Positions 1,917-53,229 of a stretch of DNA of 53,229 nt are shown piece by piece; within the stretch, counting starts at the first letter, position 1, and every line of letters starts with the position of its first letter. Source of the stretch: an uncultured bacterium (lineage in GTDB: Bacteria > Bacteroidota > Bacteroidia > Sphingobacteriales > Sphingobacteriaceae); contig CAIKLP010000028.1 in assembly GCA_903828245.1 (NCBI GenBank), positions 1 through 53,229 on the forward strand. Direction: 5' to 3'. The position numbers and the translations under genes are program-made. The notes beneath the pieces are model-generated. The model did not search any database, was not told where the DNA came from, and saw only the letters and a list, made by a program, of their open reading frames with translations.

Positions 1917-3023
1917 CTAATAATTATTTAGTTGCAAAAAAATATTAATTTCTTTACAAATAAACTCAATTTCTTCCTGTTTCAGCCCTGGGTAACTAGG
2001 CAGATTAAGACCTCTCCAACCAATATCTTCGGCAGTTGGATGGCGTTGATATTGCGCCGAGTACATTGGCATCGTGTGTACCGGGTAAAATAAAGGTCGA
2101 GTTTCTATGCCCTGATTTTCTAGGTGTGTTCTTAATGCATCTCTTTCTTTTGCATTGCTTGTTAGTATAGAGCACATCCAATACGAATGATACACGTTGT
2201 TTCCTACTTGATTGTGAAATACAACTGGAGTATTAGCTAACAATGATCTATAAGTATCAGCTACCCTTTCCTTTTCTTTGAGTACTTGCTCAATGTTTTC
2301 TAATTGCGCTAAACCAATTGCAGCACATATGTTTGTCATTCTGTAGTTGTAACCAACAACATCATGCCAATATTGCCTATGCTTGGCTAGTCCTTGTCCT
2401 TTAAAGTGTACCGAACGGTCATGTAATGTCTCATCATTTGTTACAACCATTCCACCTTCTCCTGTAGTTATTGTTTTATTTCCAAAAAAACTAAATGTAG
2501 AGATATCTCCAAATGTACCTACATGCTTACCATTGTATAGTGATCCAATAGCTTCAGCACAATCTTCAATTAGAAAAATATTATGCTTTTTACATATTTC
2601 AACTAAGGGATCCATATCACAAGGATGACCATACAAATGAACGGCCATTACTGCTTTAGTTTTAGTGGTTATCTTTTTTAGGACATCATCTGGATTAATT
2701 TGCCAACTTTCAGACAAAGAATCTACAAATACAGGAGTAGCCCCAGTATAAGCTATTGCATTAACAGATGCAATGTAAGTAAGTGTAGGAACTATTACCT
2801 CATCTCCTTCGCCAATACCAAGTGCCAATAAGGCTAAATGTATTGCAACTGTTCCATTTGAAACAGTTGTGGCATGTTTTACATCAATGTAGTTGGCAAA
2901 AGCAGTTTCAAATTGATTGACAAATTTTCCTTTAGAAGATATCCAAGTTGAATCGATACATTCATTGACATACTTTTTTTCATTACCATTTAATGAAGGT
3001 TGATAAACTGGTATTTTATACAT
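1917..3023 (-). CDS. per: GDP-perosamine synthase (DegT/DnrJ/EryC1/StrS aminotransferase)
   Basis: This 368-residue PLP-dependent sugar aminotransferase converts GDP-4-keto-6-deoxy-D-mannose to GDP-D-perosamine with glutamate as amino donor. The sequence follows the Escherichia coli O157 Per (RfbE) pattern, as I remember it, along its whole length. Landmarks are IPVYQPSLNGNEKKYVNEC at the N terminus, VSNGTVAIHLALLALGIGEG, the EDCAEA motif near residues 153-158, and the Schiff-base Lys183 in FSFFGNKTITTGEGG. The length is normal for the family. The gene lies between the wzx gene (17 nt upstream) and the NeuD-like acetyltransferase gene. The GDP-mannose 4,6-dehydratase that makes its substrate is encoded at 12769-13905. 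No fcl gene, which would divert that intermediate to GDP-fucose, is visible. The substrate call rests on recalled similarity and has not been tested. Confidence 0.88.
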   Translation of the reverse strand: MYKIPVYQPSLNGNEKKYVNECIDSTWISSKGKFVNQFETAFANYIDVKHATTVSNGTVAIHLALLALGIGEGDEVIVPTLTYIASVNAIAYTGATPVFVDSLSESWQINPDDVLKKITTKTKAVMAVHLYGHPCDMDPLVEICKKHNIFLIEDCAEAIGSLYNGKHVGTFGDISTFSFFGNKTITTGEGGMVVTNDETLHDRSVHFKGQGLAKHRQYWHDVVGYNYRMTNICAAIGLAQLENIEQVLKEKERVADTYRSLLANTPVVFHNQVGNNVYHSYWMCSILTSNAKERDALRTHLENQGIETRPLFYPVHTMPMYSAQYQRHPTAEDIGWRGLNLPSYPGLKQEEIEFICKEINIFLQLNNY

Positions 3024-3039
3024 GATAAAAAAATTTAAG

Positions 3040-4389
3040 TTATTTATTCCAAATTCCTACTGCCTTATTATTTATAATTTTTTTATATTGAATATAACCT
3101 AGAAAAGCTCCTAAACTTAAACTCAGGGCATTTGCCAATGGTATTGCAGTTATATCTAGATGAATTATTTTTATAAAAAATATTGATAGTAAAATATTGA
3201 TTAAAGCAACTAAGGGAGCAAAAATTACCTGTAAACGTATTTTACCAACTCCGTTCAAAAAGTTAGAAAATATTGAGCTCCAATTCATTATCGCTATATA
3301 TAAACACAAACAAGCCGAGAGACTGATAGAAATGTTTATCTCGTCACCCACCCACATTTTAAAAAATATAGAAGACACAAATATCATAAATAATGAAATT
3401 AATAAACTAAATAGAAAAATCTTAACTAATTTCTGAATTGATTTTTTAATCCAAGATATTTCTTTTTTGAAATATGCTTCATTAAAAGCGGTCCAATATG
3501 GTGTCAAAATAATTGAAAAAATAACTGCCAAAATGCTGTAGTACTTGTAAGCGACATTGAAATTAGTTACCTCTTTTGGCTCAAAAAAATGAGAAATCAA
3601 AATATTATCTGTTTGAAAAATTACCACAACAACAATTTGTAGAATAAAAAACTGCCATCCCAAACTCAAAATTCCTTTAGAACTACTAAAATTTACTTTT
3701 TCAAGTGAAGGCTTGACGCTTTTAAATCTTGTATTAAATAAAATAAAACTAGCGATAAAACTTATTATCAAAGGAATTAAAGAAAGACAAATTGCTAACA
3801 AAACTAAATTAGCCACAGTTGTTTTTGTCAATATCCAAACAGACATAGTAATTCCTAAGTTACTCAAAAAAAGCAAGAATGAACTGACTGCAACCATTTG
3901 AAATGCTGCTGCAACTACATTGATGATATCTGCAACAAATTTTAATAAAAATAAAATAGCAACAATGCTTACCGTATCACGCAATTTATTTTCATGTATA
4001 AAAGGAGCATTAAAAACAAATTGCCAATTTACGAGCTGATAAAATAAAAGATAAATGCAAACTAAACCAATTGCTATTAAGCCTATTATTACGTAGGATG
4101 TACTTACATAAATCTTGGCCTGTGAATAGTTATTTGCAGCTAAGCTTTCTGATAGTTTGTTTTTTAGGCCATTTGCAATTCCAATATCCAGCATAGCAAT
4201 CCAGCCAACTAAAGAGGATAAAGTTAACCATACACCATATATATCCGGTTTTATATAATTTATTGTTAAAGGCACTAAAATGAAAGATAATAATATACTT
4301 CCTCCTCTAAAAAATAAAGATAGTAATGTATTTAGATTGACTTTTTGAGTTCTATTGATATTATATTTTTGAAAAATATTTTTTATCAT
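3040..4389 (-). CDS. wzx: Wzx-type polysaccharide flippase
   Basis: This 449-residue integral inner-membrane protein belongs to the polysaccharide-specific transporter (MOP/PST) superfamily. It shows about 12 to 14 hydrophobic segments separated by short basic loops. The N terminus has the family look (LLSLFFRGGSILLSFILVPLTINYI, seen here as hydrophobic stretches around residues 22-47), followed by DIYGVWLTLSSLVGWIAMLD. Wzx flips undecaprenyl-linked repeat units across the inner membrane for polymerisation or ligation. The neighbours are a Wzz-like protein (upstream on the minus strand) and sugar-biosynthesis genes, which fits a Wzy-dependent pathway, although no Wzy polymerase is visible. 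The gene is strongly A+T rich. Its substrate would be whatever repeat unit contains perosamine. Confidence 0.85.
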   Translation of the reverse strand: MIKNIFQKYNINRTQKVNLNTLLSLFFRGGSILLSFILVPLTINYIKPDIYGVWLTLSSLVGWIAMLDIGIANGLKNKLSESLAANNYSQAKIYVSTSYVIIGLIAIGLVCIYLLFYQLVNWQFVFNAPFIHENKLRDTVSIVAILFLLKFVADIINVVAAAFQMVAVSSFLLFLSNLGITMSVWILTKTTVANLVLLAICLSLIPLIISFIASFILFNTRFKSVKPSLEKVNFSSSKGILSLGWQFFILQIVVVVIFQTDNILISHFFEPKEVTNFNVAYKYYSILAVIFSIILTPYWTAFNEAYFKKEISWIKKSIQKLVKIFLFSLLISLFMIFVSSIFFKMWVGDEINISISLSACLCLYIAIMNWSSIFSNFLNGVGKIRLQVIFAPLVALINILLSIFFIKIIHLDITAIPLANALSLSLGAFLGYIQYKKIINNKAVGIWNK

Positions 4390-5496: not shown

Positions 5497-7962
5497 TTAT
5501 TTTAATTGTTTTATTAAGATATAGATTGTAGCTATGCTCACTATTTTGGTGGTAAGACTTTCAAAGAACTTATTGGCATTGAAAGGTTCTTCTGCTTTTT
5601 TCTTATCTGCCTTTACTTTTGGTGGTTTGGCCACAACATAAATAACCGAGCCTTTGCTAATGCGTGGGTAGATAGGATAAAATAAGATGCGTTGGGTTCT
5701 ATTAATTTTGGCATTGGGTTGTATCACATAAGTTTTGCGGCGCCATGCATTATCCGAAAAGCCCGAACCATAATTTCGAATATAATAACCAGCGCGTCGG
5801 CCAGCTAAATAAGGTGCATTCACTTGCGCCACCTCTTTGATATCTGTATAATTTAAAGCATTGCCTTTGATGCTCACCAAATCTGGAACCGTTGGTATGT
5901 GCAAGGAATCGCCATCTTTCAATAAATAATTATTGCGGTTCCAGCTAAATTTAATGGCTTTTTGTAATTTAATAACAATGTAATTGCCAGGTAAAGATGG
6001 GCGGTAAAAAGTAGCCGCTTCTGGAAAGGCGTAATGGGTAATGCCACCTGCGCGTTTAACCACATTGGCAATTTTTTCGTCTTTTTGCATTAAGGGATAT
6101 TTGCCTGGGTATAATACTTCGCCGGTAATTTCGATGATACCAAAATTAGTAAACTCTGGTATGTTGCGAATAAATATTTGATCGAAGGGTTGCAAATTAA
6201 TTTTGGCATTGGCCTCGGTCAAGTAATTTTCTTTGGTATCAAAACGAATGGTATCGACCAATACTTTTATTTCTTCGCCCATTTTATAGTTTGGCGAAAA
6301 ATAAGATAAGCGCGATAATTCAATTCGGCTATTACTTGCCGATAAGGTTAAGCCCCCTGCATTTTTTATCGCATCGCCTAAGGTGATGCCTTTGGTATAG
6401 GCTTGCGCACCGGCTTTACGAACAGCGCCAAAAACTTCGATATTGGTATTGTCTAAATAATCTATTTTATTATAAATGACTAATTCGTCTAAGGGTTGCA
6501 ATAGCATATTGGCAATTGCATTACCAGCAAGGGCCTCTTTTAAATTTACTTTAATAAAGGCCTTGCTTAAATCGGCTTGCGTACGTATAACATATGCCCA
6601 ATCGCTTTGGCTCGTATTTTTTAAACCACCTGCAATTTGCACTAAAGATTGTATGGTACTGGCTTTATTAAAATTATATTCACCCGGAAAATTAATAGCC
6701 CCTTGTATAGCCACTTTATTCAACACTTCGTTTACACTGCTGCGCACCAAAATTTCGTCGCCATTTTTTAAGGTAAAATCTTTATTGATTTTTTGAAGCG
6801 AATCAAAATTAACATCTATTAATTTAATTTCTTTGTTTTCGATGCGGCGCACTTGCAAGGCATTGGCATAAGCATTGGCCGTAAATCCACCGGCATAAGT
6901 AATTACATCGGCTAAGTTTTCGTTTGCTAATAATTCAAAACTCGCATTGCGTTTTACTGCACCGCTCAATTGTACTATTTTTTGCGAACTACCAACTATA
7001 ATATAATCGTTTTCTTCTAAGAAAAAATCTTGCCCTGCATTGGCATCATTTAAAAAAGCATACACATCTAGGCTTTTAAGCAACTTACCATTTCTTTTAA
7101 TTTGAATATTACGCAAGGTTCCAATATTAGATGGACCACCGGCAAGTATCAAAGCATTGAATGCCGAATTAATAGCCGGGAAATTATAAGAGCCTGGTTT
7201 CAATACTTCGCCAACAATGTTTACGGTAATATTACGCGCATACACTAATGCAATTTCTACTTTGTTATTGCTTAAGTCGAAGTACTGACCCATTTTTGAA
7301 CGGATCAAAGATTTTGCTTTATCGAAGGCTAAACCCTTTATAAATATAGGGCCCATGTTATTAGGATTAATGGCACCGCGCGCATCTACTTTTAATACTT
7401 CGTTATAATAAGAATATCCAAAAACCGAAACACCAAATTCGTCGCCTATACCAATGATATAATTGCTTGGTGCTTTGGCATCGGTAGAACGGTTAAATAT
7501 TTTGATATCGCCTTCGCGGAAATAACTTTGACCGTAAACAACAGCTGCAGGTAATGCATCGGCTGTTTTAATTTCGTTCAAGGCTTTTCCTGTTAATACT
7601 ATTTCTTTATTGCCTTTAACTTCGTTGGCTTGAATAATATTGTCTTGTGCATTGTCAGTCGCTGCAGTTGCAGGTGTAGCTTTTTGCAACTTCGCTACCC
7701 TCGCATTAAATTTATCTACCTCGTTGGGGTTCAATCCTTTTTTAATAGCCATTTGTGCAGATTGCTCAACCGACAAACCAGCCGCTTGGCCTTGCTTTAA
7801 AATGTCCAAAATTTGGGCATCGGTCATTTCATCTACTTTAACAGTACCCAAATTGTTTGGATCCATGCCAGCCGGAACTTGTGCATAGCCATTTTGCATA
7901 GCTAAAAAACATACCATTACGCTTGCAATAAAAAATTTCAAGATGTTGCTTTTTGTATTCAT
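5497..7962 (-). CDS. Wza-like polysaccharide export protein with multiple SLBB domains
   Basis: This 821-residue exported protein probably forms the outer-membrane or periplasmic channel for the polysaccharide. It has an N-terminal signal peptide (hydrophobic residues 9-27 ending NGYAQ). A region near residues 33-95 is rich in Ala, Gln and Lys and repeats helix-like MTDAQILDILKQGQAAG segments. A Poly_export domain begins around residue 168 (YIIGIGDEFGVSVFG). About five to six SLBB repeats follow, recognisable from recurring motifs such as IVGEVLKPGSYNFP, LSGAVKRNASFEL, IQGAINFPGEYNF and ITGEVLYPGKYPL. The C terminus has a hydrophobic helix (ATIYILIKQLK). It is larger than E. coli Wza (about 380 residues), as is usual for Bacteroidota SLBB exporters. 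It is the first gene of a minus-strand operon with its own promoter. Confidence 0.88.
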   Translation of the reverse strand: MNTKSNILKFFIASVMVCFLAMQNGYAQVPAGMDPNNLGTVKVDEMTDAQILDILKQGQAAGLSVEQSAQMAIKKGLNPNEVDKFNARVAKLQKATPATAATDNAQDNIIQANEVKGNKEIVLTGKALNEIKTADALPAAVVYGQSYFREGDIKIFNRSTDAKAPSNYIIGIGDEFGVSVFGYSYYNEVLKVDARGAINPNNMGPIFIKGLAFDKAKSLIRSKMGQYFDLSNNKVEIALVYARNITVNIVGEVLKPGSYNFPAINSAFNALILAGGPSNIGTLRNIQIKRNGKLLKSLDVYAFLNDANAGQDFFLEENDYIIVGSSQKIVQLSGAVKRNASFELLANENLADVITYAGGFTANAYANALQVRRIENKEIKLIDVNFDSLQKINKDFTLKNGDEILVRSSVNEVLNKVAIQGAINFPGEYNFNKASTIQSLVQIAGGLKNTSQSDWAYVIRTQADLSKAFIKVNLKEALAGNAIANMLLQPLDELVIYNKIDYLDNTNIEVFGAVRKAGAQAYTKGITLGDAIKNAGGLTLSASNSRIELSRLSYFSPNYKMGEEIKVLVDTIRFDTKENYLTEANAKINLQPFDQIFIRNIPEFTNFGIIEITGEVLYPGKYPLMQKDEKIANVVKRAGGITHYAFPEAATFYRPSLPGNYIVIKLQKAIKFSWNRNNYLLKDGDSLHIPTVPDLVSIKGNALNYTDIKEVAQVNAPYLAGRRAGYYIRNYGSGFSDNAWRRKTYVIQPNAKINRTQRILFYPIYPRISKGSVIYVVAKPPKVKADKKKAEEPFNANKFFESLTTKIVSIATIYILIKQLK

Positions 7963-9790: not shown

Positions 9791-10916
9791 AATAAATTTT
9801 ATTGATTTAGCGGAGGTTTATAAATTACACCAAACTGAATTTGATGCGGCTATATCTGCTACATTAAATAGCGCAGATTATATTAACGGAAAAGCGCTCG
9901 GCGAATTTAATTTAGCTTTAGCAGCATTTACCCGCGCGCAACATGTGATTACTTGCGGCAACGGAACCGATGCATTGCAAATAGCCATGATGGCTTTAAA
10001 TTTACAAGCCGGTGATGAAATAATTTTACCTGCTTTTACTTATACCGCAACAGCAGAAGTAATTGCTTTATTAAAATTAAAACCTGTTTTTGTGGATGTC
10101 TGCGCCGATACTTTTAATATTGATATAGCTGCTATGGAAGCCGCCATTACTTCTAAAACAAAGGCTTTGCTACCGGTACATTTATTTGGACAATGCGCCA
10201 ATATGGAAGCAATTATAGCTTTAGCTGTTCGGCACAATTTGTTTGTTATAGAAGATGCGGCGCAAGCCATTGGTGCACAACATACTTTTGCCAGTGGCGA
10301 AATGTTGCAAGCGGGTTGCATGGGCACCATCGGTTGTACTTCTTTTTTCCCAACAAAAAATTTAGGCGCCTTTGGCGATGGCGGAGCAATATTTTGCAAT
10401 GAACCCGAATTAGCTTTGCAATTAAAAATGATTGCCAACCATGGACAAAAAGAAAAATATGTACACGAACGCGTTGGCGTAAATTCTCGATTAGATACTT
10501 TACAAGCAGCTATTTTAAATGTACAAATCAAATATTTACCCGCTGCTATTTTACGCAAGCAACAAATTGCTGAACGCTACGATATAGCATTAGCTGGCAT
10601 TACAGGGCTTAGTATTCCGTTTAGAGATGTAAAAAGTACACACGTATTTCATCAATATACTTTACGCATTAGCGAGCGCAGAAATGAATTGAAAAAATAT
10701 TTAGCAGATGCAGAGATTGATAGCATGATCTATTATGCAACTCCTATGCATTTACAAAAAGCTTATGCAAGCGCGGCACATCCTGCCGGCAGCTTTCCGA
10801 TTGCCGAACAACTTTGCGAAGAAGTTTTATCTATTCCGATTCACACTACTTTAACAGATACGGAAATTGATTTTATCATTCAGAAAATAAAAGATTTTTT
10901 TGCAACGGTTGCTTAA
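9777..10916 (+). CDS. wbpE: DegT-family aminotransferase, WbpE/WlbC-like
   Basis: This 379-residue PLP-dependent aminotransferase has the internal aldimine Lys194 in TSFFPTKNLGAFGDGG and the PLP-binding Asp160 in the IEDAAQA stretch. WbpE/WlbC transfers an amino group from glutamate to C3 of UDP-3-keto-GlcNAcA, made by the WbpB-like enzyme whose gene overlaps it by 14 nt. The FFPTKNLG form of the lysine motif is the one usual for 3-aminotransferases of this pathway and for FdtB/QdtB-like enzymes, unlike the FFGNK form of the perosamine synthase at 1917-3023. It ends inside a 12-bp palindrome shared with the convergent wbpD-like gene. An FdtB-type role is possible but has less context support. 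Confidence 0.86.
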   Translation: MPENKINFIDLAEVYKLHQTEFDAAISATLNSADYINGKALGEFNLALAAFTRAQHVITCGNGTDALQIAMMALNLQAGDEIILPAFTYTATAEVIALLKLKPVFVDVCADTFNIDIAAMEAAITSKTKALLPVHLFGQCANMEAIIALAVRHNLFVIEDAAQAIGAQHTFASGEMLQAGCMGTIGCTSFFPTKNLGAFGDGGAIFCNEPELALQLKMIANHGQKEKYVHERVGVNSRLDTLQAAILNVQIKYLPAAILRKQQIAERYDIALAGITGLSIPFRDVKSTHVFHQYTLRISERRNELKKYLADAEIDSMIYYATPMHLQKAYASAAHPAGSFPIAEQLCEEVLSIPIHTTLTDTEIDFIIQKIKDFFATVA

Positions 10917-11485: not shown

Positions 11486-11496
11486 GGATTTTATTT

Positions 11497-12762
11497 TTAT
11501 AATCGGCCGTCTACTAAATTGCGGTCGATGAATGCTTTGGTATCGAACAACACACTCGGATTATTTAAAATACTTGGGTAATTAATCGATTTAAACTCTT
11601 GGTGCGAAACCGCTAATATCACTGCATCATAGCCTTTTGCTATTTGCTGAATTAAATTTATTTTATATTCTTCTTTTACGGCATCTGCATTAGCATGCGG
11701 ATCATATACATCCACTTGCAATCCAAATTGATTTAACTCCTGTACAATATCAATTACTTTTGAATTACGAATGTCGGGGCAATTTTCTTTAAAAGTAACG
11801 CCTAAAACCAAAGCTTTAGCGCCTTTAATAGTGATGCCTTTTGCAATCATTAACTTCACTACTTTATTGGCCACAAACATACCCATGGTATCGTTTACCC
11901 TGCGGCCCGATAAAATAACTTGGGGTTGGTATCCTAAACTTTCTGCTTTATGTGCTAAGTAATATGGATCAACGCCAATGCAATGTCCACCGACTAAACC
12001 AGGTTGGTATTTTAAGAAATTCCATTTGGTTCCGGCTGCGGCTAAAACATCTTGCGTATCAATATCCATGCGATCAAAGATCAAAGCCAATTCGTTTACA
12101 AAAGAAATGTTCACGTCGCGTTGCGCATTCTCTATGGCTTTGCTGGCTTCGGCCACTTTAATGCTAGGCGCTAAATGAGTGCCCGCAGTAATGATACTTT
12201 GATATAATTCATCTACCTGTTTAGCAATAGCAGGTGTAGAACCAGAAGTTACTTTTTTAATTTTGGTAAGCGTATTGATTTTATCACCTGGGTTGATGCG
12301 CTCTGGCGAATAACCACAGAAAAAATCTTGGTTGAAAACTAAGCCACTGGTTTTTGCTAAAACAGGTACGCAATCTTCTTCGGTACAACCTGGATAAACC
12401 GTAGATTCATAAATAACAATGTCCCCTTTTTTCAAAACCTTGCCGAGCATTTCGCTGGCTTTTAATAAGGGTTTTAAATCTGGTTTTTTAAATTGATCTA
12501 TAGGAGTAGGAACAGTAACAATAAAAATGTTGCAAGCTTTTAAATCTTCGGTATTGGCAGAAAAAGCCAAACCGCTATTTGCATTGCCTTTCAGGGCTAC
12601 TTGCATTCCCGCTAAATCTGCTTCGAGTGTACGGTCTTCGCCTTTATTTAATTCGGCTACACGGCTCGCATCAATATCGAAACCCAATACTGGATATTTT
12701 TTTCCGAACTCGATGGCCAATGGTAAACCCACATAACCTAAACCTATGATGGCTATTTTCAT
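11497..12762 (-). CDS. wbpA: UDP-N-acetylhexosamine 6-dehydrogenase (WbpA/TviB family)
   Basis: This 421-residue nucleotide-sugar dehydrogenase oxidises C6 of UDP-GlcNAc (or UDP-GalNAc) to the uronic acid in two NAD-dependent steps. The N terminus is the Rossmann motif IIGLGYVGLPLAIEFGK. The catalytic Cys261 sits in GLVGGHCIGVDPYYLAHKA, the motif characteristic of UDP-N-acetylhexosamine dehydrogenases rather than UDP-glucose dehydrogenase. The C-terminal domain has VTFKENCPDIRNSKV. GEDRTLEAD near residues 41-49 resembles TviB/WbpO as well as WbpA, so the GlcNAc-versus-GalNAc preference is not settled by sequence. It starts the WbpABED set. gmd ends 6 nt upstream on the same strand. Confidence 0.87.
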   Translation of the reverse strand: MKIAIIGLGYVGLPLAIEFGKKYPVLGFDIDASRVAELNKGEDRTLEADLAGMQVALKGNANSGLAFSANTEDLKACNIFIVTVPTPIDQFKKPDLKPLLKASEMLGKVLKKGDIVIYESTVYPGCTEEDCVPVLAKTSGLVFNQDFFCGYSPERINPGDKINTLTKIKKVTSGSTPAIAKQVDELYQSIITAGTHLAPSIKVAEASKAIENAQRDVNISFVNELALIFDRMDIDTQDVLAAAGTKWNFLKYQPGLVGGHCIGVDPYYLAHKAESLGYQPQVILSGRRVNDTMGMFVANKVVKLMIAKGITIKGAKALVLGVTFKENCPDIRNSKVIDIVQELNQFGLQVDVYDPHANADAVKEEYKINLIQQIAKGYDAVILAVSHQEFKSINYPSILNNPSVLFDTKAFIDRNLVDGRL

Positions 12763-12768
12763 TATAAA

Positions 12769-13905
12769 TTATTCAAAATAATTATTGGTTTTAAAACCAC
12801 CTGCTTTTAAATATTGCTCTTTCTTCATCAAATTTAAATCGCTTGCCATCATGTCTTTTACCAAGGCTGGTAAATCGTATTTTGGTTTCCAATTTAATTT
12901 GGTATTCGCTTTGGTAGGATCGCCGATTAATAAATCAACTTCGGTTGGGCGGAAATATTTTTCATCTACCAAAACAACAGTCTGACCAAACTTAATGTGA
13001 TCAGGATTTAAACCCAATGACAACATTTTGTCTTTATCAACATCAATCACTACGCCTCTTTCGGCGGCATCTTTGCCAGAAAATTCTAATTCAATACCTA
13101 CTTCTGCAAAACTCATTTTTACAAAATCTCTAACAGTAGTAGTAACCCCAGTTGCAATCACAAAATCTTCGGGCTTTTCTTGTTGTAAAATTAAATACAT
13201 GGCCTCTACATAATCTTTTGCATGGCCCCAATCTCTGCGGGCATCGAGGTTACCTAAATAGATTTTATCTTGTAAACCCATGGCAATTTTTGCAGCGGCA
13301 CGGGTAATTTTACGGGTTACAAAAGTTTCGCCACGCACCGGGCTTTCGTGGTTAAATAAAATTCCATTGCAAGCATACATGCCATAAGCTTCGCGGTAAT
13401 TCACCGTAATCCAGTACGCATACATTTTAGCAACTGCATAAGGTGAACGCGGATAAAAAGGCGTAGTTTCTGATTGCGGAACCGCTTGCACCAATCCATA
13501 TAACTCGGAAGTAGAAGCTTGGTAAATTTTAGTTTTTTTAGTTAATCCCAAAATACGCACCGCTTCTAATAATCGTAGCGTGCCTATGCCATCGGCATTG
13601 GCGGTATATTCTGGCGTATCGAAACTTACTTTTACATGGCTCATGGCCGCTAAATTATAAATTTCGTCTGGCTGTGTTTCTTGTACAATGCGAATCAAAT
13701 TAGTAGAGTCGGTCAAGTCGCCGTAATGCAATTTAAAATTCACATGCGTCTCGTGTTGGTCTTGGTATAAATGATCGATGCGATCGGTATTAAACATAGA
13801 ACTTCTTCTTTTAACACCATGCACCATGTATCCTTTTTTCAACAAAAACTCTGCTAAATAAGCGCCGTCTTGTCCTGTAATTCCTGTTATTAATGCTACT
13901 TTCAT
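12769..13905 (-). CDS. gmd: GDP-mannose 4,6-dehydratase
   Basis: This 378-residue short-chain dehydrogenase/reductase converts GDP-D-mannose to GDP-4-keto-6-deoxy-D-mannose. The NADP-binding motif [13 protein letters not shown] is at residues 7-19, followed by [17 protein letters not shown]. The catalytic set is visible as Thr132, Glu134, Tyr156 and Lys160 (STSELYG and [10 protein letters not shown]). [17 protein letters not shown] is diagnostic for Gmd. The product is shared by Fcl (to fucose), Rmd (to rhamnose) and Per (to perosamine). Only the Per-type enzyme is encoded in this window. The gene follows the phosphomannose isomerase-like gene on the same strand after an 85-nt A/C-rich leader. 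Confidence 0.95.
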
Positions 13906-48871: not shown

Positions 48872-49359
48872 AAAACGTACTCTTTGACGAAAGACAAACA
48901 TTAGGCTCTGTTCGATTCTGGACAAGCTGGAGATTCGCTGTGGTCTTGTTCTGTGTAGCAGCCTACTTTGTTTCGGAAGAGCGTAACCGCAGCGAAGAAG
49001 GTGATTTATTTTTAGTAGTAGGTACGGGGGTGATGTTGATTTCTATTTTATTTATTTTTTTAACGCATTACAGAACCATTATACAAAATGGCAGCCTCAT
49101 ACTCACCGGCCTTTGGAGCACGAAGAAAGTAAAAATAGATTTTCAAAGTATTGATACTTGTGAAATTGTAAAGTACAGTCCATTCTTTATCAATAACCCG
49201 GTGTATAACTTGCATAAAAAAGGAACCATTCGTTTTTATGCACATGGAAAATATGCAGTTAAATTAATAGACAAAGATGGCTTGGTTTATATTATTGGTT
49301 CGCAAGATCCCATTGAGCTCGACCGGGTAATTAAAGAAATGCTAAAAGCGAATAAATAA
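48868..49359 (+). CDS. Small membrane protein with PH-like domain
   Basis: This 163-residue protein has two hydrophobic helices (about 22-37 and 48-65) followed by a beta-rich basic domain of about 95 residues (KVKIDFQSIDTC, GTIRFYAHGKYAVKLIDKDG). The domain looks like a bPH-type fold, with a C-terminal helix (ELDRVIKEML). I do not recognise a family by name. The ATG overlaps the tilS stop by 4 nt, so the two are translationally coupled. A strong bidirectional terminator follows. The function is unknown. Confidence 0.7.
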   Translation: MKNVLFDERQTLGSVRFWTSWRFAVVLFCVAAYFVSEERNRSEEGDLFLVVGTGVMLISILFIFLTHYRTIIQNGSLILTGLWSTKKVKIDFQSIDTCEIVKYSPFFINNPVYNLHKKGTIRFYAHGKYAVKLIDKDGLVYIIGSQDPIELDRVIKEMLKANK

Positions 49360-49390
49360 AAAAAGCTTACCAATTTGGTAAGCTTTTTTT
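49358..49390. terminator. Bidirectional terminator between tilS operon and tRNA-Val fragment
   Basis: AAAAAAAGCTTACC (49358-49371), a 5-nt loop and GGTAAGCTTTTTTT (49377-49390) form a long stem with A- and T-runs on both flanks. It serves the plus-strand gene ending at 49359 and originally also the minus-strand tRNA-Val gene whose 3' end begins 2 nt away. Confidence 0.88.
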
Positions 49391-49391
49391 G

Positions 49392-49433
49392 TGGGAGATA
49401 CTGGGTTCGAACCAGTGACCCCCTGCTTGTAAG
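49392..49433 (-). pseudogene. tRNA-Val(UAC) 3' fragment, integration site (attL)
   Basis: On the minus strand the 42 nt read as the 3' part of tRNA-Val. They are the anticodon loop CTTACAA (anticodon UAC), the 3' anticodon strand GCAGG, the variable loop GGGTC, a T arm ACTGG-TTCGAAC-CCAGT that pairs perfectly, the acceptor strand ATCTCCC and discriminator A, with no encoded CCA. The position where the 5' anticodon strand should be (49434-49438) reads TACTT and cannot pair, so the tRNA is cut exactly at the anticodon loop. This is the pattern left when a tyrosine recombinase inserts an element into a tRNA gene. An intact tRNA-Val should be found at the other end of the element. Confidence 0.85.
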
Positions 49434-49521: not shown

Positions 49522-49550
49522 TTGTATTTTATTGTTTATTACTATATTTG
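49522..49550 (+). promoter_or_regulatory. Predicted promoter of the integrase gene
   Basis: TTG (49522-49524), 18 nt, then TATATTTG (49543-49550) matches the Bacteroidota consensus closely. The start site near 49557 leaves about 26 nt before the ATG at 49583. It lies inside a T-rich tract with repeated TTTACTG-like motifs at 49451-49544 that could include recombinase arm sites. Confidence 0.5.
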
Positions 49551-49582
49551 TTTACACCATGTTTCCACCCAAATAGTAAGTA

Positions 49583-50794
49583 ATGAAAAATTCAGCATCA
49601 ATTAAAGTAACATTATATATACATAAAACACTTAAAAACGGTCAACATCCAATTATAATTCAAATAATTAAGGATAGAAAGATTAAAAAAATATCTATTG
49701 GCTATTCTGCAAAAAAAGATGAATGGGATTTCACAGAAAATAAACCGTCAAAAAAACATCCTTTACGAAAAGAACTAGAAACTGTAATTAATATGAAAAT
49801 GGCAATTCTTTCAAAACAAGTATTAGCCTTAGAATTACAATCAGATGATTATTCAGCAGAAACTGTTGTTAAAAGAGTACAAAGAAAAAAAGCTTCAACT
49901 TCTATAATAGGTTTTTTTGATGAAGTTATAGTAGACCTAAGAAAAAATAATAGAATTGGAAATGCAGATATATATCAAACGTGTAAAAATGTAATAAACA
50001 CTTTTATTAATGGTAAAGATTTAGCATTTATTGATGTTGATTATGTATTCTTAAATAAATTAGAAAATTCATGGAAACAAAAGGGATGGAAAGAAAGTAG
50101 TATTTCAACATATATGAGAACCTTAAGAGCATTGTTTAATAAAGCGATTAAAGAAGAAGTTATTGAGCCTAGTGTATATCCTTTTAAAACTTACAAAATA
50201 AGCAGTCTAAATACCATTACACAAAAAAGAGCACTAAACAGGGCTCAAATATCAGCTATTGAACAATTAAAACTATCTAAAGAATCATATTTGTTATTTG
50301 CTAAAAACATATTCTTGTTTAGTTATTATACTATGGGGACAAACTTTGTTGATATAGCTGAACTTACGAAAAAAAATATTGTTAATGATCAATTACAATA
50401 TACTAGAGCTAAGACTCATAAATCATATAATACACCTATACATCCTAAAGCAAAAATAATTTTGAACTATTATATTTCAATTCAAACTGATAAGTATATT
50501 TTCCCTATTTATACTGAAAAAATTCATAAAACAGCTCAACAAAAAGCAAATCGTTTACACAAAGTTTTACAAAACGTAAATAAGAATCTAAAAGAAATAG
50601 CAGTAAAATGCAATATATCAGAAAATTTAACGACTTATGTTGCAAGACATAGTTCAGCTACTATTTTAAAAAGAGAGGGAATTTCAACATCAAAAATAAA
50701 AGACTTGTTAGGGCACGAAACTGAAGAAATTACTCAAGTGTATTTAGATAGCTTTGAAAATTTTGAACTAACAACAGCAGTAAATTTATTATAA
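49583..50794 (+). CDS. Tyrosine recombinase (site-specific integrase)
   Basis: This 403-residue integrase should insert and excise the element at the tRNA-Val site. It has an N-terminal arm-binding domain (SIKVTLYIHKTLKNGQHPI), a SAM-like core-binding domain (about 105-200) and a catalytic domain (about 217-403). In the catalytic domain the Arg I position has Met251 (FSYYTMGTNFVDI). Lys277 lies in YTRAKT. Arg355 is in YVARHS with Tyr352 in place of the usual His, as in other Bacteroidota enzymes. His378 is in LLGHE and the nucleophile is Tyr387 in QVYLDSF. The lack of Arg I recalls IntDOT. The gene is oriented away from the att site. Confidence 0.9.
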   Translation: MKNSASIKVTLYIHKTLKNGQHPIIIQIIKDRKIKKISIGYSAKKDEWDFTENKPSKKHPLRKELETVINMKMAILSKQVLALELQSDDYSAETVVKRVQRKKASTSIIGFFDEVIVDLRKNNRIGNADIYQTCKNVINTFINGKDLAFIDVDYVFLNKLENSWKQKGWKESSISTYMRTLRALFNKAIKEEVIEPSVYPFKTYKISSLNTITQKRALNRAQISAIEQLKLSKESYLLFAKNIFLFSYYTMGTNFVDIAELTKKNIVNDQLQYTRAKTHKSYNTPIHPKAKIILNYYISIQTDKYIFPIYTEKIHKTAQQKANRLHKVLQNVNKNLKEIAVKCNISENLTTYVARHSSATILKREGISTSKIKDLLGHETEEITQVYLDSFENFELTTAVNLL

Positions 50795-51625: not shown

Positions 51626-51925
51626 ATGAGTCAAGTTATCGTAACATCAAAAGAAGAATTATCAACTTTAATAAAAGTAGCTATACTTCAAGCTCTTGAA
51701 GAGAAATCTGAAAATGTAATAGAAAAAGATGAAATTCTTTCAATACAAGAGGCATCAGTCTTTTTAAATTTAGCCAAACAAACACTTTATAGTTTTACTT
51801 CAAAAAATATTATCCCTTTTTTAAAGAAAGGTAAAAAACTATACTTTAGAAAATCTGAACTGATTATTTGGCTTTCAGAAGGTGAAAGAAAGTCTAATAG
51901 TGAAATCTTAAAAAGTATAATTTAA
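51626..51925 (+). CDS. Excisionase-like helix-turn-helix protein
   Basis: This 99-residue DNA-binding protein has a MerR/Xis-type winged HTH at about residues 40-90: ILSIQEASVFLNLAKQTLY is the helix-turn-helix and KGKKLYFRKSELIIWL the wing and following helix. Bacteroidota elements usually carry such HTH_17 proteins next to the integrase, as excisionases or as regulators of excision genes. The N-terminal 35 residues form a helix that may mediate multimerisation. It is 2 nt before the ATPase gene. The excisionase role is likely by context, but not shown. Confidence 0.82.
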   Translation: MSQVIVTSKEELSTLIKVAILQALEEKSENVIEKDEILSIQEASVFLNLAKQTLYSFTSKNIIPFLKKGKKLYFRKSELIIWLSEGERKSNSEILKSII

Positions 51926-51927
51926 TT

Positions 51928-52962
51928 ATGGAGAAGTTAAATAATCCTGAAATAAATTTAATTGAAGAAAATAATAATAAATCACTTTTAAAAATACGAA
52001 CAGGTAACCAATGTATTATTGATGCAAAAAACAAATCTGAACCTAACATGCTATTTTCTGAATTTTGGCACGAAGGAGAGCTTTGCATTTGCTTTGCAGA
52101 CACTAATCTTGGAAAGTCTATTCTTGCAGTTCAAATAGCGAATTCAATTAGTAAAGGTTTACCTGTGAATGGCTTTAAAATGAATGCTTATAAACAGAAA
52201 GTACTTTATTTTGATTTTGAAATGGGAGATAAACAATTTCAAAGGCGATACTCAGAAGAATATATAAATGATTATTTATTTGATGATAATTTTCTAAGAG
52301 TTGAGATTAATCCAGATTTTACTGATTTTGAAAAATTTGAAATTGCTTTATTTGATGCAATAGAAAAAGCAATTATAAGTCAAACTGCTAAGTTATTAAT
52401 TATTGATAATCTTACTTATTTGTGTGCACAAACAACTGAAAAAGCTAAGGATGCACTTCCATTAATGAAAAAATTAAAAGACTTAAAAATCAAACATGAT
52501 TTATCTTTATTAGTACTTGCTCATACACCAAAACGTAATTTATTTGATCCAATTACGAATAAAGACCTTGCAGGTAGTAAACATTTAGCAAATTTTGCAG
52601 ATAGTATTTTTGCTATCGGCGAGAGTTTTAAAGAAAAAAGCATACGCTATTTAAAACAGGTAAAAGCAAGAGCAACTGAAATTATATTTGATTCTGAAAA
52701 CATTGTAGTATGTGAATTACAAAAGCCAGATAATTTTTTAAAGTTTACTTATATAAACTATGGTTATGAAAAAGATCATTTAAAGCCACTTAGTGAAAAT
52801 CAATCTTCTGAAATCGATAATGCTATTATTGAACTAAAAAGTAGCACCCCTAACTTAACTAATGGTGAAATAGCACAAAGATTAGGTACATATAAAATGA
52901 AAGTGGGAAGAGTTCTAAAAAAGCACTCTGAAACAAATAGTAACAACCATAACAAGGTGTAA
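51928..52962 (+). CDS. RepA-like AAA ATPase (RecA-fold) with C-terminal wHTH
   Basis: This 344-residue ATPase has the RepA/RecA-type core. Walker A is CFADTNLGKSILA (Ala57 to Ser64), an acidic YFDFEMGDKQFQRR follows, and Walker B is LLIIDNLTYL (Asp160). HTPKRN and GSKHLANFADSIFAIG match the family's later motifs. The C-terminal 50 residues (LTNGEIAQRLGTYKMKVGRVLKKH) look like a winged helix. Such proteins occur in mobile elements as replicative helicases or as primase-associated regulators. The stop codon lies in a large inverted/direct repeat. The class-specific substrate is unknown. Confidence 0.83.
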   Translation: MEKLNNPEINLIEENNNKSLLKIRTGNQCIIDAKNKSEPNMLFSEFWHEGELCICFADTNLGKSILAVQIANSISKGLPVNGFKMNAYKQKVLYFDFEMGDKQFQRRYSEEYINDYLFDDNFLRVEINPDFTDFEKFEIALFDAIEKAIISQTAKLLIIDNLTYLCAQTTEKAKDALPLMKKLKDLKIKHDLSLLVLAHTPKRNLFDPITNKDLAGSKHLANFADSIFAIGESFKEKSIRYLKQVKARATEIIFDSENIVVCELQKPDNFLKFTYINYGYEKDHLKPLSENQSSEIDNAIIELKSSTPNLTNGEIAQRLGTYKMKVGRVLKKHSETNSNNHNKV

Positions 52963-52990
52963 CATATGTTACACATGTTACACCTTGTTA
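52950..52990. repeat. Nested inverted/direct 9-mer repeat cluster
   Basis: GTGTAACAT (52957-52965) is followed head-to-head by two tandem copies of its complement ATGTTACAC (52966-52974 and 52975-52983). The flanks TAACAAG and CTTGTTA extend the outer arms to a 16-bp perfect inverted repeat with a 9-nt spacer. The first two copies alone make an 18-bp perfect palindrome. The cluster covers the stop codon of the ATPase gene and has no T-run, so it is better read as a protein-binding or origin-like site than as a terminator. Confidence 0.75.
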
Positions 52991-53099: not shown

Positions 53100-53229
53100 A
53101 TGAGAAATTCAATATGTGTAATCTGTTTAAACGAATTTAAACCCAGAGAAGGGAAATTATACTGCTCTAATGCTTGTAAGCAAAAAGGTTACTTAGATAA
53201 GAAACGCCCAAAAATCGAAGTAATAAAAA
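53100..53229 (+). CDS. Small zinc-finger-like protein, truncated by window end
   Basis: The reading frame starts at ATG 53100 and is still open at the window edge (43 codons). It encodes a Cys-x2-Cys at Cys6/Cys9 (SICVICLNEF) and a second pair in YCSNACKQKGY, about 15 residues apart, in the layout of a zinc ribbon; the rest is basic (DKKRPK). Similar CxxC...CSxxCKQ proteins are common in Bacteroidota mobile elements after the replication gene. The function is unknown and the length is not determined. Confidence 0.62.
   Translation, partial: MRNSICVICLNEFKPREGKLYCSNACKQKGYLDKKRPKIEVIK

Follow-up and report, generated by a model that had tools for sequence, protein, structure and literature searches.

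The window, a stretch of 53,229 nucleotides that makes up a whole contig, almost certainly holds the left end of an integrative element of the genomic-island or mobilizable type of the Bacteroidota, which was put into a tRNA-Val(UAC) gene by its own integrase. The displaced half of the tRNA gene, the empty sites in relatives, complete homologous elements with both of their ends, and repeats at both of these ends were all seen directly. The end of the contig falls 3.8 kb inside the element, and we infer that the far end of the window's element is like that of its relatives.

The displaced half reads CTTACAAGCAGGGGGTCACTGGTTCGAACCCAGTATCTCCCA on the minus strand, which is the perfect last 42 nt of a tRNA-Val gene with the anticodon UAC: it contains the part of the anticodon loop with UAC, the 3' anticodon strand, the T arm, the 3' acceptor strand, and the discriminator. 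ARAGORN reported no tRNA in the 53,229-nt window; a perfect match of 42 nt to tRNA-Val is far beyond chance. The tRNA half is preceded on its left by tilS, a small unknown gene, and a hairpin terminator. To its right, about 110 AT-rich bases are followed by a pair of short repeats and then by the integrase gene. At the junction, the GC content decreases from 36% to 25%, the minimum for any stretch of the same length on the contig. The positions of all features are given in the table.

Features at the left end of the integrative element in the window
Feature	Position	Strand	Basis
Native hairpin with T-run (bidirectional terminator), separating the left neighbour gene from the tRNA	49358..49390	.	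Self-complementary match; also in the empty site L019
Displaced 3' half of tRNA-Val(UAC), left attachment-site half	49392..49433	-	Same as the intact L019/L020 gene up to 49433
Anticodon-loop part CTTACAAG, presumed crossover location	49426..49433	-	Divergence from the empty site from 49434
Two GTTTACACC-type repeats (GTTTACACC, GTTTCCACC), 11 bp apart	49550..49569	+	Pattern found once in the 1.95-Mb genome
Tyrosine recombinase with Arm-DNA-bind_5, Phage_int_SAM_5, and Phage_integrase domains	49583..50794	+	Pfam, all three above cut-offs
245-aa protein, family-less, at the position that an RteC-domain gene has in L056	50802..51539	+	No Pfam match at 0.001
HTH_17 helix-turn-helix protein, excisionase-like	51626..51925	+	Pfam; 62% identical to the L056 counterpart
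AAA_25 RepA-like ATPase	51928..52962	+	Pfam
Palindrome AACAAGGTGTAACAT...ATGTTACACCTTGTT after the ATPase gene	52950..52990	.	Fold z = -4.8; inverted match
Small CxxC zinc-ribbon-like ORF, of which the contig contains only the beginning	53100..53229	+	Direct translation

Two genomes of the same genus, G002 (L019) and G001 (L020), show what the site looks like without the element: The same left neighbours are followed by a complete tRNA-Val(tac) gene and then by an AsmA-like gene, a name that stems from reading the sequence and not from a database. The sequence-only reading had described a perfect 42-nt 3' half of tRNA-Val at the left border and had proposed a comparison with element-free relatives; in this comparison the identity between the window and the empty site ends exactly at 49433, where GCAGGTGCTCTGAACC... 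gives way to AAGTACCCCTC... Since the window leaves the empty-site sequence inside the tRNA gene, we can conclude that the anticodon loop is where the element was inserted. The divergence from the empty site begins three bases earlier in the homologous element L056 than in the window. That a 3' half sits at the border was thus correctly recognized; its origin, in contrast, has to be corrected: Most simply, the fragment at the left edge is the chromosome's original, displaced 3' half rather than the copy borne by the element, and the element lies to its right. Two further relatives differ at this site. G005 (L017, C33:6000-16000) has a 1.7-kb insert at the same tRNA-Val site (2598-4330) with a sulfatase-like gene and no integrase, the right end of which, composed of a terminator and a degenerate repeat, resembles the right end of the G202 element; this insert is probably a decayed element. 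In G004, the left flank (L018, C82) and the intact tRNA (L021, C54) are found on separate contigs with foreign sequence at the join, and the site is probably occupied in this genome, too.

Complete homologous elements were identified in two other Bacteroidota, G202 and G201. Both carry, at the same place in tRNA-Val, integrases that are 78-81% identical to that of the window (L056 and L057; one of the two 78%, the other 81%). In G202, the displaced 3' half (2379-2418) and the intact tRNA-Val(UAC) (11490-11565) enclose an element of 9.1 kb, and in G201, the displaced 3' half at 7001-7087 is followed by the intact tRNA-Val 13.7 kb on. The displaced half adjoins the integrase gene in both of them. 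G201 even reproduces the layout of the window, i. e. the 3' half, the sequence AAGTA.CCCCT, about 110 bp, the arm repeats, and the integrase gene. More distant elements in G090 (18 kb) and G194 (34 kb), with integrases that are 39-40% identical, have the same layout as well, and a restored complete tRNA is present at the other end in G201, G202, G090, and G194. That an integrative element entered the anticodon loop and that it brings along a 3' half by which the tRNA is restored, as had been proposed from the window alone, is supported by the empty sites and by the complete elements of G201 and G202.

The tRNA-Val(UAC) gene is used repeatedly as an insertion site in the host family. A 3' half paired with an intact gene was found in G090, G194, G050, G034, G030, G037, and G123. 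Among sampled high-quality genomes of the family, 103 bear the motif, and 3' halves outnumber intact copies in about 13 of these, a count made by eye in which a few cases may be sequence variants or contig ends. A different arrangement was seen in G197:C10 (L086/L087) and G191:C1 (L089), where integrase genes are enclosed by two complete tRNA-Val(UAC) genes with distances of 17 kb and 10 kb between them; in G197, the copy on the integrase side seems to have no promoter-like upstream sequence. Elements of this arrangement possibly bring along more of the tRNA than its 3' half. Around position 10831 of G097:C30 (L078), a sequence similar to tRNA-Val is interrupted in its D-loop region by an insert, and its 3' half does not resemble that of tRNA-Val; it may be a chimeric tRNA or a decayed one.

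The repeats of the left pair in the window start at 49550 and 49561. Both ends of the elements in G201 and G202 have GTTTACACC-like pairs with the same spacing of 11 bp, and similar pairs in reverse orientation are located near the ends of the elements in G090 and G194, with one degenerate copy at the right end in G194. Judging from their position and conservation, these pairs are most likely the arm sites of the integrase. In the homologous elements, a hairpin terminator is located between the right pair and the restored tRNA, indicating that the element brings in the 3' half of the tRNA together with a terminator. The element-specific sequence starts with CTTGT in G202, as compared to CTTGTAAG in the window and in G201; this difference and the exchange in the anticodon loop that is known for such integrases (PMC8371274) lead us to place the crossover in this loop.

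We suggest that attP carries a copy of the tRNA that extends from the anticodon loop to the 3' end and is followed by the terminator. The integrase would be anchored on the paired GTTTACACC arm sites and would exchange the strands in the anticodon loop. By this exchange, the native 5' half with its promoter would be joined to the 3' half of the element, so that a functional tRNA would arise at the far end; the 3' half native to the chromosome would stay behind at the left edge. If this model is correct, the far end of the window's element is expected to consist of a second 42-nt 3' half joined to GCAGGTGCTCTGAACCAGCTGAGCTAATCTCCC, followed by the AsmA-like gene as in L019. The circular form that would arise by excision is expected to have an attP junction composed of the right end of the element, the 3' half, and AAGTACCCCT.

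The visible part of the element encodes the integrase, the 245-aa protein, the HTH protein, and the ATPase, with the cut ORF behind them. The integrase gene begins 150 bp inside the element, in agreement with the tyrosine recombinase noticed in the sequence-only reading. The 245-aa protein encoded behind it did not match the RteC-domain protein of L056 convincingly; a Cas_Cmr5 assignment of this protein was rejected (14 bits, as compared to a Pfam cut-off of 21). An HTH gene of the window's kind and an RteC-domain gene are present in both complete relatives, G201 and G202. The ATPase of the window is about 44% identical to ATPases of Bacteroides plasmids, and on one of these plasmids, the cfxA-carrying CP103131, an excisionase gene is located directly upstream of the related ATPase gene. 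The palindrome behind the ATPase gene of the window is a possible replication origin or operator. In the related element of L067, palindromic repeats (12884-13040) are likewise located directly 3' of the replication gene; the palindromes of the two elements are alike in place, and their replication genes are different.

With respect to cargo, both complete relatives share a pair of genes for secreted surface proteins, namely a glycoside hydrolase 16 and an S74 (endosialidase chaperone) protein that ends in a T9SS sorting tail (L056 8675-11231, L057 8831-11309). In addition, the G201 element encodes a VapE-like primase-helicase, the G090 island DNA methyltransferases, and the G194 island a MobA/VirD2-like relaxase, a HEPN protein, and RecBCD-like genes. 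It is conceivable, but unlikely, that the inserted DNA is a temperate phage or a phage satellite, which would be compatible with the same mechanism of attachment. A tyrosine integrase together with a replication ATPase is also a layout of prophages or satellites, and the VapE-like protein of G201 points in the same direction. However, no relatives of the integrase were found in IMG/VR, no virion or packaging genes were found in the visible part of the window's element or recognized in the 9.1- and 13.7-kb relatives, the window's ATPase matches Bacteroides plasmids, and the larger relative in G194 has the relaxase.

The cargo beyond the contig end had been regarded as the most likely place for a new system, an expectation that found no support in the relatives surveyed. 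Among the genes tried with PADLOC, none gave a convincing defence system, the matches being limited to weak HTH/ATPase hits and a VirE/primase domain in G201, and nothing in the surveyed pieces of the related islands, which cover part of their genes, pointed to a system of a new kind. We consider it quite improbable that the unseen remainder has undescribed cargo, or that the group with the integrase at the displaced fragment represents an attP architecture undescribed for the Bacteroidota, in which a spare half of the tRNA is flanked by arm sites and a terminator.

The same assembly was screened for a second end of the element with the tRNA, with DNA and protein of the right flank, with the overlap of contig ends, and with the arm repeat, and none turned up; the right-flank gene was not detected in this assembly, nor was an intact tRNA-Val(UAC) of this type. 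One might think of a decayed remnant that has lost its far end, so that the tRNA was never restored and the cell relies on another valine tRNA, and a decayed insert does seem to be present at the same site in G005. Yet, the reading frames for the integrase, the HTH protein, and the ATPase are open and intact, and since the whole right flank is absent as well, the missing tRNA reflects missing sequence; a remnant is thus very improbable. A chimera of assembly or binning, with the tRNA half and the integrase region coming from different organisms or contig pieces, would agree with a draft contig of a 99-contig assembly that ends 3.8 kb past the junction, with the lack of the right flank in the bin, and with the sharp change in GC content, but it is hardly credible in the window because the left junction AAGTA.CCCCT is repeated in the independent genome G201 on a contig of 91 kb, which is a strong argument against it.

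The integrative element in tRNA-Val(UAC) is best compared with known tRNA islands. It had been implied that insertion in the anticodon loop is unusual, and the Islander collection shows the opposite: The most frequent tRNA islands in it are those inserted into the anticodon loop with restoration of the 3' half; the attP is anticodon-centred in 2,083 islands and lies in the T-stem region in 1,836, and a 3' fragment is recorded for 3,760 (PMC4383910). This attachment class is the one of Williams 2002 and class A of Islander (via PMC4383910, PMC8371274). The window provides a clean example of this known strategy of integration, a textbook case rather than an exception, and shows that the tRNA-Val(UAC) gene adjacent to tilS is used repeatedly for insertion in this genus. 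This is useful for delimiting islands in draft genomes, and no new question arises from it. As in other islands of the anticodon class, there are a tyrosine integrase, a split tRNA with the displaced 3' fragment at one end, and an island-borne 3' half that restores the gene, the latter as seen in the homologous elements. In contrast to these islands, the integrase gene is located beside the displaced fragment in the integrase relatives of the window. Other integrases of the same host family adjoin the restored tRNA, and the two groups are found on different sides of the tree, which is unrooted and has 15 labelled and 17 unlabelled rows.

Among the elements of the Bacteroidota, NBU1, NBU2, and Tn4555 (PMC5704250) are similar in having a tyrosine integrase of this phylum and adjacent genes for an excisionase-like HTH protein and for replication, and the HTH-ATPase pair of the window resembles the pair on the cfxA-carrying Bacteroides plasmid. 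However, the target sites given for NBU1 and NBU2 are the 3' ends of tRNA-Leu and tRNA-Ser rather than the anticodon loop of tRNA-Val, and a relaxase or oriT for mobilization, as expected of elements of this kind, was not seen in the visible 3.8 kb of the window's element nor recognized in the complete G201 and G202 elements, whereas a relaxase is present in G194. Finally, the 10K island of Riemerella anatipestifer, again a member of the Bacteroidota, has a tyrosine integrase next to a tRNA; this island of about 10 kb was shown to integrate and excise (PMC6764341), but it uses a 53-bp repeat at tRNA-Arg and not the anticodon loop of tRNA-Val.
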